39,433 bases of DNA from Sphingobacteriales bacterium (GTDB taxonomy: Bacteria; Bacteroidota; Bacteroidia; Chitinophagales; Chitinophagaceae). This document shows, piece by piece, positions 7,522 through 34,820 of this stretch. A model generated the notes under the pieces. It did not search any database, was not told the origin of the DNA, and worked only from the letters and a program-made list of their open reading frames with translations. Within the stretch, counting starts at the first letter, position 1, and the number at the start of each line of letters is the position of its first letter. The position numbers and the translations under genes are program-made. The DNA lies in contig REAR01000086.1 in the NCBI GenBank assembly GCA_004295245.1, positions 1 to 39,433 of the forward strand, written 5' to 3'.

Positions 7522-8379
7522 ATGTTAAAGAAACTTTTATCCTTGATTGCCGCTTTTTTGGTGCTGGTTACAGCCACCGCTCAAAAAGAAAGCTTTGTAC
7601 ACCAGGGTGAGTTTGGTTTAAGTGCAGGTGCTGCACATTACTTTGGTGACTTAAATACAAAAGCCCGTCTTAACAGACCTAAAATGGCCATTGGCGCCTT
7701 CTTCCGAAAACAGTTTGGTAATTATGTAGCATTAAGAGTTGCAGCAAACTATGCACAATTGGGTTATTCTGATGTTTACAATACACATAACGAATATCAG
7801 TTACGCCGCAACCTTAGCTTTAATACCAATGTATGGGAGCTGGCAGTTATGGGAGATTTCAACTTCTTTCGTTTTGAACCAGGCACATTAGATTATGCAT
7901 TCACTCCTTACGTTTCTATTGGTGTAAGCGCCTTTAGCTATGATCCTTATGCTTATTATCAGGGTCAGAAAGTTTTCTTGAGACCTTTGGGTACAGAAGG
8001 TCAGGGTTTAGCAGGCTTCGACGCACCTTATGGTTCAATGGCTTTTGCCATTCCTTTTGGAGTAGGTATAAAATATAATATCAACGAAAAGGTGAATATT
8101 GGTTTTGAAGTAATTCACAGATTTACAAATACCGATTATCTGGATGATGTAAGCAATAAATATGTAGACCCAGCACTGTTTCCGAAATTACCAGATGGCT
8201 CTGCATCATTAGCAGAATTGTTAAGTGATAGAAGTGGAGAAACAGGCCCCGATAAAATTGGCTTTGTAAATGGGGTAGCAAGGCAACGTGGTTTTCCAAA
8301 ACAAAAAGACCAATTTTTAACTGCTCAGGTAACGCTATCATTCAACTTATCTTCGTACCGTTGCCCCACAGCTAATTAA
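7522..8379 (+). CDS. DUF6089/PorG-like outer-membrane beta-barrel protein
   Basis: This 285-residue protein has a clear signal peptide (MLKKLL...TATA-Q). The mature part begins GEFGLSAGAAHYFGDLN and alternates hydrophobic and aromatic beta-strands, ending in a strand of the form TLSFNL. This matches the DUF6089 family, which includes the T9SS component PorG; my assignment rests on the opening motif and gene order. In related genomes I recall nadK, a DUF6089 gene, isoprenyl transferase and bamA lying together. Here the DUF6089 gene is followed instead by a terminator, a repeat element and FG-GAP genes. The role is structural at the outer membrane; a link to protein secretion is inference. Confidence 0.75.
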   Translation: MLKKLLSLIAAFLVLVTATAQKESFVHQGEFGLSAGAAHYFGDLNTKARLNRPKMAIGAFFRKQFGNYVALRVAANYAQLGYSDVYNTHNEYQLRRNLSFNTNVWELAVMGDFNFFRFEPGTLDYAFTPYVSIGVSAFSYDPYAYYQGQKVFLRPLGTEGQGLAGFDAPYGSMAFAIPFGVGIKYNINEKVNIGFEVIHRFTNTDYLDDVSNKYVDPALFPKLPDGSASLAELLSDRSGETGPDKIGFVNGVARQRGFPKQKDQFLTAQVTLSFNLSSYRCPTAN

Positions 8380-8404: not shown

Positions 8405-8431
8405 CGCCGCTTTTATAGCGGCGCTTTTTTT
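8405..8431 (+). terminator. Rho-independent terminator
   Basis: CGCCGC (8405-8410) pairs with GCGGCG (8418-8423) across a 7-nt loop, followed by C and seven T. It sits 25 bp after the DUF6089 stop. Its T-tract runs directly into the GTAACCAGC edge of a palindromic repeat element. Confidence 0.9.
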
Positions 8432-8647
8432 GTAACCAGCTAATGTACTTATGGCAACATCGTTGCTACGCTCAGTTCAACCACAGTGCCAATGGCATCA
8501 ATAGTTGCAAACGTTTGCAACTTACCGGCCAAACAATCTTGCCTTGTGTGCAGCTAATTTGCTTTCTTTGTTGGCTTAATCGTAATAACAAATGATGAAC
8601 GGATTGCGACGCAACAATGCCACACCGGAGTTACCAAAGCTGGTATC
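8432..8647. repeat. Palindromic intergenic element, copy 2, overlapping a gene start
   Basis: The left edge is GTAACCAGC (8432-8440), with left arm CATCGTTGCTACGCTCAGTT at about 8458-8477. The right arm is GATGAACGGATTGCGACGC from 8594, with right edge AGCTGGTA near 8639. The left arm is a variant of the core in which GTCGCACAC reads TACGCTCAG. The right arm and right edge lie inside the coding region that starts at 8592. A perfect 20-bp palindrome sits between the arms. Confidence 0.7.
8503..8522. promoter_or_regulatory. Perfect 20-bp palindrome, LacI-family-type operator
   Basis: The sequence agttgcaaacgtttgcaact is a perfect inverted repeat with a central CG, the usual symmetry of LacI-family operators. 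It lies 70-89 bp upstream of the FG-GAP lipoprotein start. A related GTTTGCAAAC palindrome is found upstream of the LacI gene of this window (29864-29873). Confidence 0.7.
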
Positions 8648-11600
8648 CTATTTAAAACATCGGGTTATTTTTTGTTGTGGTTTATTATGCATGCTAAATA
8701 TGGCTTGTAATAATAGCGGCGCAACTGCAGATGCTAACGCACTGTTTACTTTGATGGATAATACAGGCATTGGGTTTACCAATACAATTACCAATACCAA
8801 AGACTTTAATATTTTCAGCTACCGAAATTTTTATAATGGAGGCGGCACCGCAATTGGCGACATTAATAATGATGGCCTGGCAGATGTTTTTTTTACAGCC
8901 AATATGAGCAGTAATAAACTATATGTAAACAAAGGCAACTGGCAGTTTGAAGATGTTTCTGAAAAAGCAGGTATTACTGAAACTAATAAATGGAGCACGG
9001 GTGTTGTAATGGTTGATATTAATAATGATGGCTGGTTAGATATTTATGTTTGTAATGCAGGCTTTCAAAAAGACATGCCGCAAGAAAATGCATTGTTTAT
9101 TAATAACCACGATTTGACGTTTACAGATAAAGCGAAAGAATATGGGCTGGCTGATGCCGGCTATACCACTCATGCCGCTTTTTTTGATTATGATATGGAT
9201 GGCGATCTGGATTGCTATATTCTTAACAACAGTTTTATACCGGTTAATACATTAAACTATTCTAACAAAAGAGAACTGCGTGCAGAAGACTGGCCAGTAG
9301 CTGATTTTTTAAAGGGTGGCGGAGACCACCTGATGCGGAATGATGGCGGCACATTTACCGATGTAAGTAAAGCTGCTGGTATTTATGGTAGCCTGATTGG
9401 TTTTGGGCTAGGAGTAACTGTTGGTGATGTAAATAATGACGGCTATCCGGATATTTATGTGAGCAACGATTTTTTTGAGAGAGATTATTTGTATATAAAT
9501 CAAAAAAACGGAACGTTTACCGAAGAGCTGGAGCAACGCATGCAACACATCAGTCATTCTTCTATGGGTGCAGATATGGCCGATATAAATAACGATGGCC
9601 ACCCCGATATTTTTGTAACAGAAATGCTGCCAGGAGATGATTACAGGCTTAAAACCACCACCTCCTTTGAAAGTGTGGATATACAACGCCTGAAAGTGAA
9701 GTCGGGTTTTTATAACCAGTTTATGCAAAACACCCTGCAGATAAACAACCAGAACGGAGAATTTGTAGAGACGGCTTTTTACAGCGGAGTAGCCGCTACA
9801 GACTGGAGTTGGGGTGGGTTAATTTTTGATGCTGATAATGATGGACAGAATGATTTATACGTGTGTAACGGCATTAGTAATGATGTAACCGATCAGGATT
9901 TTATTGACTTTTTTGCAAACGATGTGGTGCAAAAAATGGTAATGACCGGAGAGAAGGAAGAGATAGAAAATATTATTCAGAAAATGCCTTCTCAAAAAAT
10001 TGCCAACCGCGTTTTTAGAAACAAAGGTGGTTTGCAATTTGAAGATGTTGGTAAAGCATGGGGCTTTTCAACGCCATCGTTTTCTAATGGAGCCGCTTAC
10101 GGAGATTTGGATAATGATGGAGACCTGGATCTGGTGGTGAATAATCTTAACCAGCAATCTTTTATCTATAAAAACAACAGCCGGGAAAAAAATAATAACA
10201 ACTACATTGGCTTTTCTTTAAAAGGCAGCGCTGCTAATACATTGGCTATTGGTAGTATGGTAAAAATATATGTTGGTAACCAGGTTTTAAATCGTGAGTT
10301 AATACCTACCCGCGGCTTTCAATCGTCAATAGATTATAAAATTATTGTGGGGCTGGGTAAACAGTTTGTAGATTCTGTAGTAATTGTATGGCCCAATAAA
10401 ACTTATACCAGCATACAAAAGCCCGCCATTAATAAAGTTAATATTATTGCACAGCCGCCAGATGCAAAGCCTTATAATTTTACTGGCACACCAATAACAA
10501 CTTTACTATCTGTAAGTACAACAACTTTTGACAAGCATACAGAGGATGATTTTATAGATTCTTATTACGATAGAAATATTCCTATGATGCTGAGCCACGA
10601 AGGACCAGCAATAGCCGTATCAGATGTAAATAAAGATGGGCTGGACGATATTTTTATTGGCGGCGCCAGTCGGCAGGCTGCACAGCTATACTTGCAAACA
10701 GCTACTGGTTTTTTAAAGAAAACAATACCCGCTTTTGATACCAATGCTATTGCAGAAGATGTAGCGGCTGCTTTTTTTGATTGTGATGGCGACGGCGATT
10801 TGGATTTAATAACAGGTAGTGGTGGTAATAACAGAGATAGTGGCAGTGCAGAGTTGCAAAACCATTTATACCGTAACGATGGCAAAGCAAATTTTACTGA
10901 AATAGTAAGTGCTTTACCACACACTACTGCAAATACTAGTGTAATAGCCCCACATGATTTTGATGGCGATGGCGATATAGATGTTTTTATAGGTAGCAGA
11001 AGTTTTCCGCTTAATTACGGGCCCACGCCGCTTAGTTTTATTTGGGTAAACAATGGTAAAGGAAATTTTTCTGAGCTGGCTGCTGCCAATTATACAGCAT
11101 TACGTACTGTGGGTTTAGTAACCAGTGCCACCTGGGCCGATATAAATGGAGATGCTATAAAAGAGTTGATTGTTGTGGGAGAATGGATGGCCCCCCAAAT
11201 TTTTACGTATAAAAATAATCAGTTTGTAGCCTTAACAACAGGTTTAGAAAATTTACAAGGCTGGTGGCAAGCTGTAGCAGCCGCCGATTTGGATGGCGAT
11301 GGCGATACCGATTTTGTATTGGGTAATATGGGCGAGAATACTTATCTGCAACCCAATGCCACTAACCCTGTAAAAATGTGGATGAATGATTTTGATGGTA
11401 ACGGGGCACCAGAAAAAATCATCAGCCGTACTATTGATGGGCAGGATATGCCTGTATTTTTGAAAAGAGATTTAACAGAGCAGGTGGTATCGTTAAAAAA
11501 AGAAAACCTGAAGCATGTAGATTTTGCAAAAAAACCAATTCAACAATTGTTTAACGCCGCCGCTATGAAAAATGTGCAGGTAAAAACATTTAATTACAAT

Positions 11601-11972
11601 AGCAGTTGTATTGCAATTAATAATGGAAAGGGTGGGTTTACTGTAACTCCATTACCTGTAATGGTGCAGTTATCCAGTGTAAATGCTATAAAAATTGCAG
11701 ATGTAAATAACGATGGCAAACCAGATATTGTAGCGGGTGGTAATAAGTTAAGCTGGTTGCCGCAGTTTTGTCGGTTAGATGCTAGCTTAGGCCATGTATT
11801 AATTAATAAAGGCAGTAATAATTTTGAGTGGCTGCCCAACCAGCAAAGCGGTTTACAACTGCGTGGAGAAATAAAGCATATTGAACTGGTAAAACGTTCA
11901 AGAAATAATGCACTCTTATTTGTGCGTAATAATGAAGTGCCGGTTATGTACCAGTTGCAATTAAAAAAATAG
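8592..11972 (+). CDS. FG-GAP/VCBS-repeat lipoprotein with ASPIC/UnbV domain
   Basis: This protein has up to 1126 residues. A lipoprotein signal is visible (VIFCCGLLCMLNMA-C, Cys39). Many DxNxDGxxD calcium-binding loops of FG-GAP/VCBS beta-propellers follow (DINNDGLADV, DINNDGWLDI, DVNNDGYPDI). An ASPIC/UnbV-type domain lies at about residues 535-620 (IGFSLKGSAANTLAIG, RGFQSS, VVIVWPN), then more FG-GAP repeats. Such proteins are common beside SusCD systems and are thought to act at the cell surface, but their substrate is not established. The only in-frame starts (8592, 8595 and a TTG at 8604) all lie inside a palindromic repeat, so the first ~18 residues are repeat-encoded. A LacI-type operator lies just upstream. 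Confidence 0.88.
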   Translation: MMNGLRRNNATPELPKLVSYLKHRVIFCCGLLCMLNMACNNSGATADANALFTLMDNTGIGFTNTITNTKDFNIFSYRNFYNGGGTAIGDINNDGLADVFFTANMSSNKLYVNKGNWQFEDVSEKAGITETNKWSTGVVMVDINNDGWLDIYVCNAGFQKDMPQENALFINNHDLTFTDKAKEYGLADAGYTTHAAFFDYDMDGDLDCYILNNSFIPVNTLNYSNKRELRAEDWPVADFLKGGGDHLMRNDGGTFTDVSKAAGIYGSLIGFGLGVTVGDVNNDGYPDIYVSNDFFERDYLYINQKNGTFTEELEQRMQHISHSSMGADMADINNDGHPDIFVTEMLPGDDYRLKTTTSFESVDIQRLKVKSGFYNQFMQNTLQINNQNGEFVETAFYSGVAATDWSWGGLIFDADNDGQNDLYVCNGISNDVTDQDFIDFFANDVVQKMVMTGEKEEIENIIQKMPSQKIANRVFRNKGGLQFEDVGKAWGFSTPSFSNGAAYGDLDNDGDLDLVVNNLNQQSFIYKNNSREKNNNNYIGFSLKGSAANTLAIGSMVKIYVGNQVLNRELIPTRGFQSSIDYKIIVGLGKQFVDSVVIVWPNKTYTSIQKPAINKVNIIAQPPDAKPYNFTGTPITTLLSVSTTTFDKHTEDDFIDSYYDRNIPMMLSHEGPAIAVSDVNKDGLDDIFIGGASRQAAQLYLQTATGFLKKTIPAFDTNAIAEDVAAAFFDCDGDGDLDLITGSGGNNRDSGSAELQNHLYRNDGKANFTEIVSALPHTTANTSVIAPHDFDGDGDIDVFIGSRSFPLNYGPTPLSFIWVNNGKGNFSELAAANYTALRTVGLVTSATWADINGDAIKELIVVGEWMAPQIFTYKNNQFVALTTGLENLQGWWQAVAAADLDGDGDTDFVLGNMGENTYLQPNATNPVKMWMNDFDGNGAPEKIISRTIDGQDMPVFLKRDLTEQVVSLKKENLKHVDFAKKPIQQLFNAAAMKNVQVKTFNYNSSCIAINNGKGGFTVTPLPVMVQLSSVNAIKIADVNNDGKPDIVAGGNKLSWLPQFCRLDASLGHVLINKGSNNFEWLPNQQSGLQLRGEIKHIELVKRSRNNALLFVRNNEVPVMYQLQLKK

Positions 11973-11978
11973 TTTTTT

Positions 11979-12084
11979 GTTGCCAGCAGCAGTACTGCTA
12001 TTAAACATCGTTGCGTCGCACACTTGTACTGCAGTTGCAGTGTGCGACGCAACAGTGCCCGGTTAATGCACCACTGCTGGTAAC
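11979..12084. repeat. Palindromic intergenic element, copy 3 (best complete copy)
   Basis: This compact copy defines the family. The outer arms GTTGCCAGCAG (11979-11989) and CTGCTGGTAAC (12074-12084) match at 10 of 11 positions. The inner arms GTTGCGTCGCACACT (12010-12024) and its exact complement (12039-12053) form a perfect 15-bp stem around a 14-nt loop. It fills the space between two paralogous genes and would fold into a long hairpin in RNA. Confidence 0.9.
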
Positions 12085-12103
12085 CCAATATTGAAATTCT
12101 AAA

Positions 12104-15100
12104 ATGAGGCATTTAAAAAATTATTTGGGCTGTTTATTATTGTTAGTGTGGCTGGTTGGGTGTAAGCAACCGCCTGCAGTGCCGGTATTGTTTGAAGTAT
12201 TGGAAAGCAGCACTACAGGCATCAACTTTACCAACAAGCTTAGCCCCACACCATCTTTTAACATGTTTAAGTACATGTATTTTTATAATGGTGCCGGTAT
12301 TGGTGCCGCCGATTTTAATAAAGATGGTTTACCCGATTTATTTTTTGCGGCCAACCAGAGTGCTAATAAATTATACCTGAATGATGGAGCATTGCATTTT
12401 AAAGATATTACTGAAACAAGCGGTATAACAAACGATGGCGGATGGAGTACCGGTGTTTCTATAATAGATATTAATAACGATGGCTTGCTTGATATTTATG
12501 TTTGCCGCGTTGGAAATTTTCAGCAACTGCAAAGTAAAAATCAATTGTGGGTATGCACGGGTATTACAAAAGATAGTATTCCGCAATTTAAAGAAGCAGC
12601 TGCTGAATATGGCCTTGCATTTTCAGGCTTTAGTACACAGGCTGCTTTTTTAGATTATGATTTGGATGGAGACCTGGATATGTACTTGCTGAACCACTCA
12701 CTTCGCTTTAACGGAACTTTTGAGCCAAGAGCTGCTTATGCCAATACATATGACTCGCTGGCTGGCGACCGCTTTTATAGAAATGATGGTAATACGTTTA
12801 CAGATATTACCCGCAAGGTGGGTATTAACAGCTCAATAATTGGTTATGGCCTGGGTATTTGTGTAGCCGATATTAATTTAGATGGCTACCCTGATATTTA
12901 TATTGGCAACGATTTTCATGAAAACGATTATCTCTATATTAATCAACGTAACGGCAGTTTTAAAGATGAGTTAACCAATGCGATGATGCATACCAGCCAG
13001 TTTTCAATGGGTGTGGATGTGGCAGATGTTAACAATGATGCGCAACCAGAAATTATTTCTATGGACATGTTGCCGGAAGACCCATATATATTGAAACGGA
13101 GTTTAGGCGAAGATGCTTTTGATATTTTTAGTTTTAAAATACGGCATGGATATAATTACCAGTATGCACGCAATACCTTGCAATACAATAATGGTAATGG
13201 GTTGTTTAGTGAGCTGGGTTTGTATGCCGGCGTATATGCAACCGACTGGAGCTGGGCACCGCTGTGGTTAGACTTTGACAACGATGGTCTGAAAGATTTG
13301 TTTATTTCTAATGGCATACCTAAGCGGCTGAACGATATTGATTATGTAAACTACGCTTCTAATGATGAGCTGCAACAAAAAATAAGAGAAAATAAATTAC
13401 AGGATAATGATTTTGCATTAATTGAAAAATTTCCGCAGATAAAACTGCGGAATAAGTTTTTTATCAATACCGGTAATTTAAAATTTAGTGATGCGGCAGC
13501 ATCTATAAAAAACGATAAAGAAACCTTTTCAAACGGTACGGTGGCGGCAGATTTTGATAATGATGGCGACATTGATATTGTTGTAAATAATATTGATGAC
13601 CCCGTTTTAGTATATAAAAATAATAGTAGCAGCAATACCTCAAAAGAGTTTATAAAACTGCAGCTAAAAGGTACAGCAGCAAATACACAGGCGTTGGGTG
13701 CTAAAGTGGTGGCATATACAAAAGCTGGTATCAGAACTTATGAAAAATGGCCCGTGCACGGTTTTCAATCTTCTATGGAAGCGCCGGTACATATTGGTGT
13801 AAAAAATACCTTGGTAGATTCTATATTGGTGATATGGCCCGATAACAGTTACGAGAAATTGCAGCCTGCTGCAGGTTTGGTAACCAATGTGGCGTATAAA
13901 AGCAATTTACCGGTGTTTAATTATACACGTCTCCAAAAACCAATTGAAGCAACAAATGCATTCAGCATTAGTAATACAACCGGGTTAAATTATTTGCATA
14001 CCGAAAACGATTTTGTAGAGTTTGATCGGGAGCAGCTATTGCCTTTTATGCTATCTAAAGAAGGACCTGGCGTTGCAGTGGCAGATATTAATCATGATGG
14101 GTTGGAAGATGTATTTATCGGCTCATCAAAAACATATAAACCCGCAGTCTTTTTACAAACCAGTAATGGCAGCTTTATAAAATCAATACAACCATCGCTT
14201 CAAGCAGATAGTATGTATGAAGAAGTAAGCGCTTGCTGGGCCGATGTAAATAATGATACACATCCTGATTTAATTGTTGCCAGCGGTGGTAATGAATATT
14301 ATGGAAAAGATGAGCACATGATGCCCCGCCTTTTTTTAAATGATGGTAAAGGCAATCTTTCTTTAAAGCAAGCGGCTTTTACTAATTTTTATTTAACTGC
14401 CAGCACAGTTGCTGCGCAGGATATTAACGGCGATGGTAAAATTGATTTATTTATTGGTGCCCGTTCCGTGCCTTGGAAGTATGGAGAACTGCCGCATTCC
14501 TATTTCTTACTAAATGATGGGCAAGGAAATTTTAAAGATGCCACAGCTACACTGTGTAAAGAACAGGAAATACATGGCTTTGTAAAAAACGCTCAATGGG
14601 CCGATTTGGATAAAGATGGGGATGCTGATTTGTTACTGGCTTTAGAGTGGGATGGTATTGTAGCCTATATTAATAATAAGGGTAGGTTTGCCCGCAAACA
14701 ACTTACTGCCGAAAGTGGGTGGTGGAATTTTGCAACTCCCTTTGATATAGATAATGACGGCGATCTTGATATTATTGCCGGCAACTTAGGTTTAAACAGC
14801 AGATTACAAGCCAGCAAAGAACAACCGGTGCATTTATATGTGAACGATTTTGATGGAAATGGTACTAAAGAACAGGTGCTAACTTATTTTCTTAATAACC
14901 GGGAACTTCCATTTGCTAACAAAGCAGAATTAGAAAAGCAGTTGCCCATTTTAAAAAAGAAATACCTGTATGCAGAAGACTTTGCTAAAGCCAGTTTAAA
15001 AGATATGTTTGGCAGCAATAAGTTAAACGAAGCTGAACTGCTTACCGCTAATTATTTTGCCAATACTATTTTTATAAACAATGGTAAAATGAATTACACA

Positions 15101-15418
15101 GCCGTTGCCATGCCGTGGCAGGCACAATTAACCTCATTAAAAGACGCAGTAATAATAAATGCTAATAACGATGCACTACCAGATATTTTAATTGCCGGAA
15201 ATTTTTATGAGAATAATATACAAATGGGCCGTTACGATGCCAGCTATGGTAACGTACTTATTAATAAAGGCAATGCCCAGTTTACCTGTGTGCCGCTAAA
15301 TGGTATGCTTGTTAAAGGGCAGGTACGGCATATACAGCCCATTATGGTTGGAGGCAAACCAAACTGGTTATTGGTGCGTAATAACGATAGCAGCTTACTG
15401 CTGCAGCAAAGCCATTAG
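12104..15418 (+). CDS. FG-GAP/VCBS-repeat lipoprotein with ASPIC/UnbV domain, paralogue
   Basis: This 1104-residue protein has a standard lipoprotein signal (CLLLLVWLVG-C, Cys20). It has the same architecture as the preceding gene: FG-GAP calcium loops (DFNKDGLPDL, DINNDGLLDI, DINLDGYPDI), an ASPIC/UnbV-type block at about residues 512-600 (IKLQLKGTAANTQALG, HGFQSS), then further repeats. Both share the internal phrases GVYATDWSW/GVAATDWSW and LPFMLSKEGP/IPMMLSHEGP, so they arose by duplication. A palindromic element separates them, so co-transcription is uncertain. Its likely place is the outer-membrane surface, in glycan or protein binding; the partner is unknown. Confidence 0.9.
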   Translation: MRHLKNYLGCLLLLVWLVGCKQPPAVPVLFEVLESSTTGINFTNKLSPTPSFNMFKYMYFYNGAGIGAADFNKDGLPDLFFAANQSANKLYLNDGALHFKDITETSGITNDGGWSTGVSIIDINNDGLLDIYVCRVGNFQQLQSKNQLWVCTGITKDSIPQFKEAAAEYGLAFSGFSTQAAFLDYDLDGDLDMYLLNHSLRFNGTFEPRAAYANTYDSLAGDRFYRNDGNTFTDITRKVGINSSIIGYGLGICVADINLDGYPDIYIGNDFHENDYLYINQRNGSFKDELTNAMMHTSQFSMGVDVADVNNDAQPEIISMDMLPEDPYILKRSLGEDAFDIFSFKIRHGYNYQYARNTLQYNNGNGLFSELGLYAGVYATDWSWAPLWLDFDNDGLKDLFISNGIPKRLNDIDYVNYASNDELQQKIRENKLQDNDFALIEKFPQIKLRNKFFINTGNLKFSDAAASIKNDKETFSNGTVAADFDNDGDIDIVVNNIDDPVLVYKNNSSSNTSKEFIKLQLKGTAANTQALGAKVVAYTKAGIRTYEKWPVHGFQSSMEAPVHIGVKNTLVDSILVIWPDNSYEKLQPAAGLVTNVAYKSNLPVFNYTRLQKPIEATNAFSISNTTGLNYLHTENDFVEFDREQLLPFMLSKEGPGVAVADINHDGLEDVFIGSSKTYKPAVFLQTSNGSFIKSIQPSLQADSMYEEVSACWADVNNDTHPDLIVASGGNEYYGKDEHMMPRLFLNDGKGNLSLKQAAFTNFYLTASTVAAQDINGDGKIDLFIGARSVPWKYGELPHSYFLLNDGQGNFKDATATLCKEQEIHGFVKNAQWADLDKDGDADLLLALEWDGIVAYINNKGRFARKQLTAESGWWNFATPFDIDNDGDLDIIAGNLGLNSRLQASKEQPVHLYVNDFDGNGTKEQVLTYFLNNRELPFANKAELEKQLPILKKKYLYAEDFAKASLKDMFGSNKLNEAELLTANYFANTIFINNGKMNYTAVAMPWQAQLTSLKDAVIINANNDALPDILIAGNFYENNIQMGRYDASYGNVLINKGNAQFTCVPLNGMLVKGQVRHIQPIMVGGKPNWLLVRNNDSSLLLQQSH

Positions 15419-29873: not shown

Positions 29874-30184
29874 TTCAGAATGGTTAAAGAAAGCAATACT
29901 TATTAAATATAAATAATTGATAAATAGTATTTTATAGCAATGCTCCAGTATGAAATTGCAACATCATAATAATACTCAACTACTGTAATTTTAAGCAGCA
30001 TTACTATTATACAATTTGTCAAAGCTATGGCTGTGTTTTTTTGTGACGAATAAAGAAGGTTTTGACTTGCCTTTTATAGTAAAAGAATTAATATTTTTTT
30101 AACTCTTTTATTAAATTTGTATAATTGCGTATCGAAAACACTTTGTTTTAGTCACTACATTGATAAACAACCTAAACATTGATT
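29874..30184 (+). promoter_or_regulatory. Divergent lacI-susC intergenic region with a -7 promoter element
   Basis: TAAATTTG at 30112-30119 is an exact match to the Bacteroidota sigma-ABfr -7 consensus TAnnTTTG, about 65 bp upstream of the susC ATG. No clear -33 TTTG is at the proper distance. The rest is AT-rich and shows no gene. None of the palindromic repeat elements occur here. Confidence 0.5.
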
Positions 30185-33157
30185 ATGAACCAACGACGCT
30201 TGCTTATGAGGTTTGTCTTGCCTCTGATGCTGCTATTCTCCTTCCAGCTTATGCTGGCTCAAGACAGAGTTATAACCGGAAAAGTTACTGATTCAAAAGA
30301 TGGATCTCCAATTGTTGGAGCTTCTGTTATTCCTAAAGGTACTACCAGAGGTACTTCTACTGGCGCAGACGGCTCATACCGTATCACAGTAGGTGCTAAT
30401 GTAAATACTTTAGTAATTACATCTGTTGGGTTCGGTAAATTAGAAGTTGACATTGCTGGTAAAACAGCAGTAGATGCAGCTTTAGCTCCAACTGGAAGCA
30501 ATCTAAATGAGATTGTGGTTGTGGGTTATGGTTCTGCACGCAAAAAAGATTTAACCGGATCTGTTGCCTCAATTAAGGCAAAAGATTTTAATGGTGGTAT
30601 TGTTAATGCTCCAGACCAATTAATTCAAGGTAAAGTGGCTGGTGTTCAAATCATTAATAATACAGGTGCTCCAGGTGGTGCTACTACAGTAAGAATCAGA
30701 GGTGTTTCATCACTTCGTGGTGGTAACTCTCCCTTATTTGTAGTTGATGGAGTTCCTTTATCTGGTAGCACTGGTGCTCCTGGTTTTGGTACTGCATTAG
30801 GTGGTGCTCCAGGAAACAACCCACTGAACTTTATCAATCCAAATGATATTGCTTCTATGGATGTTTTAAAAGACGCTTCCGCTACTGCAATCTATGGTAG
30901 CCGTGGTGCAAATGGTGTAGTTATAATTACAACCAAAAGAGGTCAATCTGGTGCTCCTAGAATTGAATTTAATACTTCAGTAGGAGTTAGTTCAATTTTA
31001 AAGAAACTGGAAGTTATGAATGCTGCTGAATATAAAGCTGCGTTAACTTCATATGGATTGACTAGTGGTAACTATGGTAGTGATGTTGATGCTATGGATG
31101 CAATTTTACGCACTGGTATCAGCAGCAACTACAATCTGGCTATTACAGGTGGTAATGAAAACGGTCGTTACCGTATCTCTGGTGGTTATCAAGATCAGCA
31201 GGGTATCGTTAAGCAATCAGGTTTCAAAAAGTATACTGGTTCAATTGTAGGTTCATATAAGTTTTTTGAAAGTAAACGTTTTTCTGTTGATTATTCATTA
31301 ACTACTACACACACTACTACTTTAGGAGCACCTATTTCTAACAACGCTGGTTTTCAGGGTAGCTTAGTGGGTACAGCATTGCAATGGAATCCAACCCACC
31401 CGTTGAGAAAAACAGATGGCTCTATTTATGTAACACCACAATTTGGTAACTCTTCAATCAATCCTTTAGCGTTATTAGAAGCATTTGACTCAAGAGGTAA
31501 CTTAACTACAATCTTAGGTAGCATTTCTCCAAGCTTTAAAATCACTAATGATTTAGAGTATAAGATGTTGTATAGTGTTAATTACAGCACTGGTAACCAA
31601 AAATATGAATTGAAAAATTGGATTAATATTCAAGGTGTTGAAGGTAATGGCCAGGCTGGTATTCAAAATCAGGTTAGCATTGATCAGCAGTTCACTCATA
31701 CATTAAATTACAATAAGAATTTTGGTAATTTAAATTTATCAGCTGTTGCTGGTTACGAATACCTGAAATTCAATAGCAATGGTGCTGGTACTTTTGGTAA
31801 CAAATTTGTTGATTATCCTGGTTTGCATTACTATGACTATATGCAAAACATACCATCAGCTAATTTATCTACTTACTCTTTCAGAAGCCCAATTGCTGAA
31901 TTACAATCATATTTTGGCCGTGTTAACTTTAACTATAAAGACAAGTTTTTATTAACTGGTACCTTCCGTGTAGATGGTTCTACTCGTTTTGGTGCTAATA
32001 ATAAATACGGCTATTTCCCTTCAGTTGGTGCTGCTTGGAATATCAACAATGAGGATTTCATGAAAGACAGCAAAGTATTTGATGTATTGAAATTGCGTGT
32101 AGGTTGGGGTCAAACAGGTAACCAAGAGTTTACCCGTAACGACGCTGCTTTACGTGTAGTTAGTATTGGAAATGGAAGCAACCTTATTAATGACAACTAT
32201 GCTAATCCAGATTTGAAATGGGAAACTAATACCACTTCAAACATTGGCTTAGACTTCGGATTCATGAATAGCAGATTTACTGGTAGCATTGATGTTTACA
32301 ATCGTGTTACTACAGATCCTATCTTCCAGTTAGATGTTACACAACCTGGTCCAAGCGGTGCCCGTTATTTTACTAACCTGCCTGGTAAAGTAACCAACAC
32401 AGGTGTTGAGATTACTTTAAATGGTGCAATTGTAAAAAATAAAGACTTCGTTTGGAACTTAGGTACTAACGTAGCTTTCCAGAAGAACAAGCTTACTGAT
32501 TTAATTGGAGCTTATTCTACAGGTGCCTTAAATGGTCAGGGTAGTTCTGGTGCTACTGTACAACGTTTGGTAAGCGGCCAGCCATTAAATGTGTATTACC
32601 TGAGAAGATTTGAAGGTCTTGACAAAACTTCAGGGCAGAGCATTTATACAGATGATGGTAACACATTATACTATTCTGGTTCACCAAACCCAACTATGCT
32701 ATTAGGCATCACAACTGATGTTTCTTATAAGAATTTCGGATTTGTGTTGAACATGAACGGTGCTTTTGGCCACTATTTGTTCAATGAAACTAACATGAAC
32801 GTAGTTCCTATTGGTAACTTAGGCACTAGAAATATTGCTAAGTCTCTGGTAGGTGGTGCGGTTAAAGAGGCAATCTCTAACCCAATTGCTCCATCAACAC
32901 GTTTCTTAGAAAAAGGTAATTACCTGAAAGCAGCAAACGCAACAGTTACTTACAGAATTGGAAACATTGGAAAAGTTATTAAAGGTGCTACATTAAGCCT
33001 TACCGGACAGAACCTGTTTGTTATCACAAAATACAGCGGTTTCGATCCAGAAGTTAACGTAGATAAAAATGTAGGTGGTATTCCATCAGCAGGTATCGAA
33101 TATATTCCTTACCCAAGCGCAAGAAATATACTTTTAGGTGTGAGATTTGAATTTTAA
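30185..33157 (+). CDS. susC: SusC/RagA-family TonB-dependent receptor, second copy
   Basis: The ATG at 30185 begins a signal peptide (MNQRRLLMRFVLP...MLAQ) and is preferred to a TTG six bases upstream. It has about 990 residues. The layout is the same as the first SusC: a regulatory domain (ITGKVTDSKDGSPIVGASV), LNEIVVVGYGSARKKDLTGS, a plug with VRIRGVSSLRGGNSPLFVVD, and a barrel ending NILLGVRFEF. Its codon use differs from its neighbours, with GGT, GCT, CCA/CCT, ATC and AAC favoured and few GGC/GGG/CCG, as in highly expressed genes. It probably imports an oligosaccharide related to the GH13 products, under control of the divergent LacI protein. Confidence 0.95.
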   Translation: MNQRRLLMRFVLPLMLLFSFQLMLAQDRVITGKVTDSKDGSPIVGASVIPKGTTRGTSTGADGSYRITVGANVNTLVITSVGFGKLEVDIAGKTAVDAALAPTGSNLNEIVVVGYGSARKKDLTGSVASIKAKDFNGGIVNAPDQLIQGKVAGVQIINNTGAPGGATTVRIRGVSSLRGGNSPLFVVDGVPLSGSTGAPGFGTALGGAPGNNPLNFINPNDIASMDVLKDASATAIYGSRGANGVVIITTKRGQSGAPRIEFNTSVGVSSILKKLEVMNAAEYKAALTSYGLTSGNYGSDVDAMDAILRTGISSNYNLAITGGNENGRYRISGGYQDQQGIVKQSGFKKYTGSIVGSYKFFESKRFSVDYSLTTTHTTTLGAPISNNAGFQGSLVGTALQWNPTHPLRKTDGSIYVTPQFGNSSINPLALLEAFDSRGNLTTILGSISPSFKITNDLEYKMLYSVNYSTGNQKYELKNWINIQGVEGNGQAGIQNQVSIDQQFTHTLNYNKNFGNLNLSAVAGYEYLKFNSNGAGTFGNKFVDYPGLHYYDYMQNIPSANLSTYSFRSPIAELQSYFGRVNFNYKDKFLLTGTFRVDGSTRFGANNKYGYFPSVGAAWNINNEDFMKDSKVFDVLKLRVGWGQTGNQEFTRNDAALRVVSIGNGSNLINDNYANPDLKWETNTTSNIGLDFGFMNSRFTGSIDVYNRVTTDPIFQLDVTQPGPSGARYFTNLPGKVTNTGVEITLNGAIVKNKDFVWNLGTNVAFQKNKLTDLIGAYSTGALNGQGSSGATVQRLVSGQPLNVYYLRRFEGLDKTSGQSIYTDDGNTLYYSGSPNPTMLLGITTDVSYKNFGFVLNMNGAFGHYLFNETNMNVVPIGNLGTRNIAKSLVGGAVKEAISNPIAPSTRFLEKGNYLKAANATVTYRIGNIGKVIKGATLSLTGQNLFVITKYSGFDPEVNVDKNVGGIPSAGIEYIPYPSARNILLGVRFEF

Positions 33158-33177
33158 TAACGATTAAATTTATAAAT

Positions 33178-34695
33178 ATGAAAATGATACGATTTTTCAT
33201 GTTGGCGCTGGTTCTTGTTTTCCAAATGGCTTGTACTAAGTTGGAACAAAAATTAGGCTCAACTATCGACTTTGACAATGCCCAGGCAACGGGTCTATTG
33301 CAAAGTGCTTACGAATCTTTAAATACCCCCATTCAAGATCAGTCTCGTTTTTGGGCGGCTCAGGAACATACATCTGATGAGGCCATCGGACCCACAAGAG
33401 GACCAGACTGGGATGACAACGGTGTTTGGAGAGTTTTACACGCACATACTTGGAATGCAGATCATACATTCCTGAGAGATACTTACCGTGAGTTGCTGCA
33501 AACTCAGTTTGCTGCATCAAGTGTACTGGCTAAAACCCCTACTACAGTTCAAGCTGCTGAAGCCCGTTTCCTTAGAGCTTTCTCTATGTTCTGCATATTA
33601 GACGGCTGGGATCAGGTGCCTTACAGAGAGGACTTAACAGACTTAGCAAAACTTCCAAAAACATTAAAAGGAACAGAAGCAGTTAACTTCATCATCTCAG
33701 AATTAAATGCAATCATTAATGACCTGCCAACATCTCCTGTTACAAGAGCTAACAAAGATGCAGCACGTGCTTTATTAATGAAATGTTATCTTAATAAAGG
33801 TGTTTATGCTAACAGAGCAAATCCAACATTTGCAGCTGCAGACTTAAACCAAGTTGTTACAATTGCAGATCAAATTATCAACAGTGGTAATTATGGTTTA
33901 ACAAGTAGCTACTTTGATACTTTTGCTCCTGACAACAGCAGCAATGCATCTAAAAACGACGAGTTAATTTACGCCTTAGAAAATACACCTGGTGTTAGAG
34001 GCGGTAACATGCGTTCTCGTTGGTTCTGTACTTTGCACTACAATAACAACCCAAGCGGTTGGAATGGTTTCACTACTTTATCTGATTTCTATGATAAGTT
34101 TGAAGCTACTGACAAACGCCGTGGCGGTTCTTACACTGGTTTAACCAATGTAAGTGGTTTAAATGCTGGTTTATTAGTAGGTCAGCAATTTGATCAGAAT
34201 GGTGTAGCATTAAAAGACAGAAAAAATAATCCGTTAGCGTTTACCAGAGAAGTTAAACTGAAAGAAACTGGTAACGATTTAGAAGTTACAGGTATTCGTG
34301 TAATTAAATATCCGATAGATTATGTTAGTGGCGATCAAAGCACTAATGAGTATGTAATCTTAAGATATGCCGATGTATTGTTAATGAAAGCAGAAGCTTT
34401 ATTACGTGTAAACGCTTCTAATGAGCCAGCAGCACGTACTATTGTTAATAATATTCGTACACATGCTAGCCGCGGTGCCACTGCTCTTACCACTCTTACT
34501 CTAAATAATTTATTAGATGAAAGAGGAAGAGAAATGTACTGGGAAGGTTGGAGAAGAAACGATCTGGTTCGTTTTGGAAAATACCTGGCTGCTTGGCAAG
34601 AAAAAGCGGCTTCAGGTCCAGAAAGATTATTGTTCCCTATTCCTAATGAGCAATTATCTGTTAACCCGAATCTGACTCAGAACACTGGTTATTAA
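33178..34695 (+). CDS. susD: SusD/RagB-family lipoprotein, second copy
   Basis: This 505-residue lipoprotein (LVFQMA-C, Cys19) starts 20 bp after the second susC. SusD features are the TPR-like AEARFLRAFSMFCILDGWDQVP, the DERGREMYWEGWRRNDLVRFG block, and the C-terminal FPIPNEQLSVNPNLTQNTGY. It shares the codon bias of its susC partner. No SusE-like gene follows; a terminator comes right after, so this is a minimal two-gene import unit. Confidence 0.95.
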   Translation: MKMIRFFMLALVLVFQMACTKLEQKLGSTIDFDNAQATGLLQSAYESLNTPIQDQSRFWAAQEHTSDEAIGPTRGPDWDDNGVWRVLHAHTWNADHTFLRDTYRELLQTQFAASSVLAKTPTTVQAAEARFLRAFSMFCILDGWDQVPYREDLTDLAKLPKTLKGTEAVNFIISELNAIINDLPTSPVTRANKDAARALLMKCYLNKGVYANRANPTFAAADLNQVVTIADQIINSGNYGLTSSYFDTFAPDNSSNASKNDELIYALENTPGVRGGNMRSRWFCTLHYNNNPSGWNGFTTLSDFYDKFEATDKRRGGSYTGLTNVSGLNAGLLVGQQFDQNGVALKDRKNNPLAFTREVKLKETGNDLEVTGIRVIKYPIDYVSGDQSTNEYVILRYADVLLMKAEALLRVNASNEPAARTIVNNIRTHASRGATALTTLTLNNLLDERGREMYWEGWRRNDLVRFGKYLAAWQEKAASGPERLLFPIPNEQLSVNPNLTQNTGY

Positions 34696-34755: not shown

Positions 34756-34820
34756 TACCAGCAATATCAAAAACCTCATCCGCAGTTGCGACGCTCCGTT
34801 CATCTGTTGTGCAAAGCTCA
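34755..34820. repeat. Palindromic element family, left half upstream of the amidase gene
   Basis: The edge ATACCAGC (34755-34762) and arm GTTGCGACGCTCCGTTCATC (34785-34804) are in left orientation. The matching right half lies beyond the amidase gene at 35792-35851. Confidence 0.6.

Follow-up and report, generated by a model that had tools for sequence, protein, structure and literature searches.

A repeat arm as the probable source of the start codon of an ASPIC/UnbV lipoprotein gene separated from its SusC-SusD operon in a member of the Chitinophagaceae

REPs are mostly intergenic, often arranged as inverted pairs and often located less than 20 bp from the 3′ ends of genes (Di Nocera et al., 2013, PMC3733652). 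A minority of them occurs in frame inside ORFs, NH2 termini included, and many of the NH2-terminal cases are regarded as misannotation (PMC3733652). In Acinetobacter, the 113-bp IS-derived MITEAba12 supplies an MQQS start to neighboring genes (PMC6382973). The Rickettsia palindromic elements (Ogata et al., 2000, 2002), as described in the review PMC10969869, are about 150 bp long, encode a conserved peptide and are found in frame in unrelated genes. Intragenic REPs, Rickettsia palindromic elements and the 5′ fusions of MITEAba12 are thus already known, and the locus described here is a new case from the Bacteroidota. Literature searches for such repeats in Chitinophagaceae and for REPs supplying starts or signal peptides yielded nothing closer than these three sources (PMC3733652, PMC6382973, PMC10969869).

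The locus was found in a stretch of 39,433 nucleotides, called the window in the following, which is contig C176 of a draft genome of 3.37 Mb in 269 contigs. It comprises a two-arm inverted repeat at about 8433–8645, followed by two paralogous lipoprotein genes, UnbV1 and UnbV2. The features referred to below are:

7522–8379, + strand: DUF6089 gene, which in relatives precedes uppS, not UnbV1
8405–8423, + strand: terminator-like hairpin of the upstream DUF6089 gene, immediately 5′ of the element
8433–8501, + strand: left arm, with the outer end TAACCAGC at 8433–8440 and the core GTTGCTACGCT
8594–8645, − strand: right arm, with the inner end GATGAACGG, the core TTGCGACGCAA at 8604–8614 and the outer end GCTGGTA
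8592–8606, + strand: the sole standard in-frame starts, ATG8592, ATG8595 and TTG8604, preceded by an in-frame TAA at 8586
8592–11972, + strand: UnbV1, an FG-GAP/ASPIC-UnbV lipoprotein gene of 1126 aa, with the lipid Cys39 at 8706–8708
8652–8654, + strand: codon 21 of UnbV1, TTA, followed by AAA CAT CGG and placed 18 residues before the Cys; judged by ortholog distances, most likely the site of a lost start
12104–15418, + strand: UnbV2, paralog of UnbV1, with its own ATG and an ordinary signal peptide
30179–34695, + strand: SusC (30179–33157) and SusD (33178–34695), the latter being the counterpart of the gene upstream of UnbV1 in relatives
34757–34820, + strand: weak arm of the same repeat past the SusD stop, on the other side of the split operon

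The repeat belongs to an abundant family. The window contains 23 matches to the motif TTGCGWCGCA, with 3.2 expected, and a BLAST search with 8440–8660 as query returned 41 places in the whole genome, with pieces 79–100% identical. A strict pattern matched the whole genome 455 times, and its reversed control matched nowhere. The same pattern was found 175 times in G005, a genome of the same taxonomic family, and in small numbers in nine further genomes of that family; the two same-genus genomes had no match to it. A 431 kb sample of the own genome (the window and L061–L080) contained 140 repeat cores, and a profile HMM detected 555 arms in a 1.6 Mb sample amounting to about half of the genome. 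Searches of Rfam and of phage records yielded no match for the repeat. From outside to inside, the arm consensus consists of a T-rich stretch, (T)ACCAGC, about 20 variable bases and GCATCGTTGCGTCGCA, followed by CACTTCAGC in the major or AATCCGTTCATC in the minor type. The position of 150 of 167 arms was intergenic; in the 431 kb sample, the arms behind stop codons turn their T-rich ACCAGC end toward the gene.

In being high-copy, dispersed, mostly intergenic and arranged in inverted pairs, the arms resemble REPs and REPIN-BIME structures. Like REPs (PMC3733652), they are short, palindromic and close to the 3′ ends of flanking ORFs: of the 94 arms facing a gene 3′ end, 56 lie within 20 nt of it, the median distance being 12 nt. 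However, the arms described here are about 50–60 nt long and possess neither a clear outer hairpin nor the terminal GTAG or CGTC tag, unpaired and shared by more than 90% of the members in most REP families; the inner GTAG-like positions are conserved to 45–59%, and CGTC is found only in the central quasi-palindrome. The repeat is therefore named only REP/MITE-like. Its core TTGCGWCGCAA is palindromic and pairs of arms could form long stems, while stems at the outer ends are hardly more frequent than in shuffled sequences. Inverted ends, TAACCAGC...GCTGGTA, are present at the element. The genome contains one Y1_Tnp gene, near a contig end and with an arm nearby, but arms flank many genes.

Several functions and origins considered for the arms were set aside. 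A role as terminators was not favored, given the position of the T run, which precedes the arm when seen from the gene end, the opposite of an intrinsic terminator. An outer hairpin (GTTACC..GGTAAC) was dropped because of its frequency, hardly above that in shuffles, and a promoter inside the element because there were weak matches only. RAYT-driven mobility also seems unlikely, as there is one Y1 transposase and the Y1_Tnp counts in relatives are not linked to the arm counts.

Read on the + strand, the right arm corresponds to codons 2–18 of UnbV1. An earlier note, made from the letters of this DNA, had claimed that all in-frame starts of the gene fall within the right arm and that the repeat supplies the start and first ~18 codons. 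The frame is closed on its 5′ side by TAA8586, and upstream of the hydrophobic segment VIFCCGLLCML and of Cys39 the only in-frame ATG, GTG or TTG codons are those at 8592, 8595 and 8604. None of these three codons is found in frame between the element edge and the signal segment, and the start must consequently lie within the element, at ATG8592, ATG8595, TTG8604 or the near-cognate CTG8640; as far as sequence can tell, every usable start of UnbV1 is thus part of the repeat. This elimination supports the view that the element would give UnbV1 its start and first ~18 codons, and the claim is further strengthened by the start positions of orthologs and by comparable genes elsewhere in this genome. 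The first part of the earlier statement has to be refined. A word exactly common to another copy begins at 8594 (GATGAACGGATTGCGACGCAACAATGCCA), which places ATG8595 and TTG8604 in the arm proper, as stated, while ATG8592, on the arm's inner border, remains between the left and right arms. The profile HMM puts the left arm at 8426–8466 and the right arm at 8652–8601. On the other side, AGCTGGTA at 8638–8645 marks the right edge of the element, which accordingly coincides with the end of codon 18 (GTA), in agreement with the proposal that the edge falls just before the hydrophobic segment. The peptide predicted as a repeat-encoded N-terminus is also encoded by other copies, for example at C254:43767 (92% over 13 residues). 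The paralog UnbV2 opens directly with its own signal peptide (MRHLKNYLGCLLLLVWLVGC), as had been noted, about 20 nt past a further copy of the element.

Comparison with homologs places the ancestral start elsewhere. The ATG nearest to the lipid Cys lies 13–25 residues upstream of it at 91 of 104 homologous loci, with a mode of 17–19 and N-termini unrelated in sequence. UnbV1 has its Cys at residue 39, with the edge of the element 20 residues upstream. The orthologs thus start closer to the Cys. No ortholog sharing the N-terminus of UnbV1 but lacking the repeat was found, nor any sign of initiation at a non-standard codon after 8640, the two findings that would have contradicted the earlier note. 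The ortholog distances, most often 16–19 residues, would put the ancestral start at codons 20–23 of UnbV1, just past the element edge, and their mode at codons 20–22; at the site matching codon 21 many relatives have ATG AAA or ATG CGN. To judge from these distances, codon 21 is most likely the site of the lost start. It had been suggested that the element took the place of the original start region; this is less certain, as the ancestral position would lie just downstream of the element. Decay of the old start beside the element, after the new one had taken over, appears at least as likely.

The surroundings of the element point to a rearrangement. SusD is located directly upstream of the UnbV1 ortholog in 68 of 80 relatives, and more relatives, among them the same-genus G001, also show this arrangement. 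The best match of the relatives' SusD in the 1.6 Mb of the own genome that were searched is the window at 33178–34692 (55–64% identity in the examples listed). Taken together, this indicates that an ancestral SusC-SusD-UnbV1-UnbV2 order was split here; the two blocks, SusC-SusD at 30179–34695 and the UnbV pair at 8592–15418, now lie about 15–18 kb apart in the window. Gene family and ancestral order are those of the SusC-SusD-linked ASPIC/UnbV lipoprotein clusters of Bacteroidota, but here the cluster is split and its first lipoprotein gene appears to have a repeat-made start. The upstream side is broken as well. In 10 of 17 relatives inspected, nadK-DUF6089 is followed by uppS, recognized by the motif HIAIIMDG in the stretch examined; of the other seven loci, five show an ORF whose size and position would suit uppS, one reaches a contig end and one has a different gene. 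The own uppS is found at C212:15069–15836 behind a dnaN-like gene, and an arm separates the two. Since both conserved neighborhoods are broken at 8433–8645, the element marks the new joint between them. This joint, read from gene order, goes beyond what the earlier note could see. The presence of arms at all three broken joints was rejected as evidence for a mechanism, because 51–65% of the tandem or convergent gene junctions of at least 60 nt carry an arm anyway; it is therefore no proof that the repeat caused the rearrangement.

From these comparisons we consider it likely that a rearrangement joint at a repeat copy cost UnbV1 its old start and that the repeat arm now supplies it. A genome rearrangement would have cut the UnbV1-UnbV2 pair from the ancestral SusC-SusD operon and put it behind nadK-DUF6089, the joint being formed by one copy of the REP/MITE-like inverted repeat, which is abundant and mostly intergenic. 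At this joint UnbV1 would have lost its operon leader, and the old start codon may have been cut off or may have decayed later. The arm abutting the signal-peptide coding region would happen to be open in frame, with ATG8592 and ATG8595 (and TTG8604), and translation starting there would add an n-region encoded by the repeat (MMNGLRRNNATPELPKLV, or the same less one residue), which signal peptidase II would strip along with the signal. The peptide stretch MNGLRRNNATPELPK would belong to initiation at 8592 or 8595. We infer translation and processing of UnbV1 as well as this order of events. A search of 300 nt yielded no convincing promoter, just two 8/10 matches to the Bacteroidota consensus; given these weak matches and the terminator-like hairpin of the DUF6089 gene, transcription from within the element is what we infer for UnbV1.

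Alternatively, UnbV1 might be a young pseudogene that lost its start by the rearrangement, the open frame through the arm being accidental and without a useful product. Operon promoter and leader are indeed gone, codon 21 reads TTA where relatives have ATG, and about half of the arms offer some start in any given frame (ATG, GTG or TTG; on average 0.58 per frame, range 0.50–0.74, compared to 0.39 for random DNA). However, the frame is intact over 1126 codons, 3.4 kb without a stop or frameshift, and the product is 61–62% identical to its best orthologs over the full length; moreover, the arm-started gene on contig C105 described below is truncated and UnbV1 is not. The pseudogene explanation is therefore regarded as unlikely. 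Slightly less probable still is a start at the near-cognate CTG8640, at the edge of the element, which would yield MVSYLKHRVIFCCGLLCMLNMAC, leave the upstream ATGs idle and still place the start in the element. The predicted n-region from ATG8592 is unusually long (~24 residues), and CTG8640 would result in a signal of ordinary length, with 22 residues to the Cys and thus inside the ortholog range of 13–25. Against this, two ATGs in an A/T-rich context lie in frame 45–48 nt upstream, and initiation at CTG is rare in bacteria.

A false assembly join at 8433–8645 is very improbable. It might be suspected in a draft of 269 contigs with a high-copy repeat, all the more since the joint links neighborhoods that are separate in relatives. 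Yet in the 1.6 Mb searched, exact words that the element shares with other places measure at most 32 nt, and those of the right arm together with its junction at most 29 nt, which would not suffice to confuse ordinary assembly at high k. In addition, the SusC-SusD counterpart is complete and keeps its own downstream gene; uppS, in turn, is located inside another contig behind dnaN, so that both ancestral joints are independently absent.

Other repeat-coded protein segments were sought in the same half of the genome (1.6 Mb), with genes defined by ORF calls only. In three further genes, an arm immediately precedes the signal-peptide core. In an SBP_bac_5 lipoprotein gene on C123 (L182:2611–4320), the arm is in frame between the start and the signal segment, and its orthologs, at most 70% identical, lack the extra arm residues. 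An exported Sortilin/BNR protein on C46 (L270, minus strand near 1217) has an N-terminal region made of arm DNA, its start being uncertain. The third gene, on C105 (L289:6411–7907), encodes an exported protein which we take to be M1-peptidase-like, Pfam giving no match; its likeliest start, ATGCTGGTA, is the arm edge, and it is truncated in comparison to its orthologs. Most other arms overlapping predicted N-termini were discarded, as judged by eye, because an ordinary ATG follows 3′ of the arm. Orthologs of the M1-peptidase-like protein in several relatives (L313–L318) have no ATG near the signal peptide and seemingly use GTG or TTG.

UnbV1 resembles the 5′ fusions of MITEAba12 (PMC6382973), where outward reading likewise gives the neighboring gene its start and first residues; there, four residues are supplied, whereas here it would be about 18, from an unrelated repeat and at a rearrangement joint. 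Unlike the NH2-terminal REPs held to be misannotated (PMC3733652), UnbV1 has no ATG, GTG or TTG downstream before its signal segment. An internal in-frame insertion relative to an empty homolog, as in Rickettsia, was found only in a polysaccharide flippase-like gene (C254:10836–12143, in L061), where a 17-codon in-frame arm is missing from the homolog of the same-genus G001; UnbV1 is an N-terminal case, not an internal one. The flippase insert resembles the Rickettsia palindromic elements of that review (PMC10969869) in being a palindromic repeat in frame within a coding gene; those elements code for a conserved peptide, whereas the reading frame of the arms described here varies from gene to gene.

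All four N-terminal cases in this half of the genome, UnbV1 and the genes on C123, C46 and C105, encode exported proteins, which suggests that N-termini made by the repeat persist in proteins that have this end cleaved off. As start donors the arms are only mildly above random DNA, so that chance together with tolerance of the n-region suffices for such fusions. That the arms repeatedly serve as ready-made cassettes of start and n-region for exported proteins in this lineage, able to rescue genes cut from operons, is rather doubtful; rescue would be possible because the repeat-coded residues leave with the signal peptide. If true, such fusions would be a recurrent route for tolerating genome rearrangement. 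UnbV1 would provide a worked example, with orthologs and both ancestral neighborhoods known, of an abundant bacterial repeat being incorporated into a protein, and would show how an open start can be retained by a gene displaced from its operon. Among known repeat-coded N-termini it stands out by its length and the documented operon split. For annotation, it is relevant that repeat-made starts are easily overlooked or trimmed wrongly.

A further observation concerns the minor arm type (ATTGCGACGCAA), which accounts for 36 of 504 arms overall but for three of the five arms located in coding sequence.
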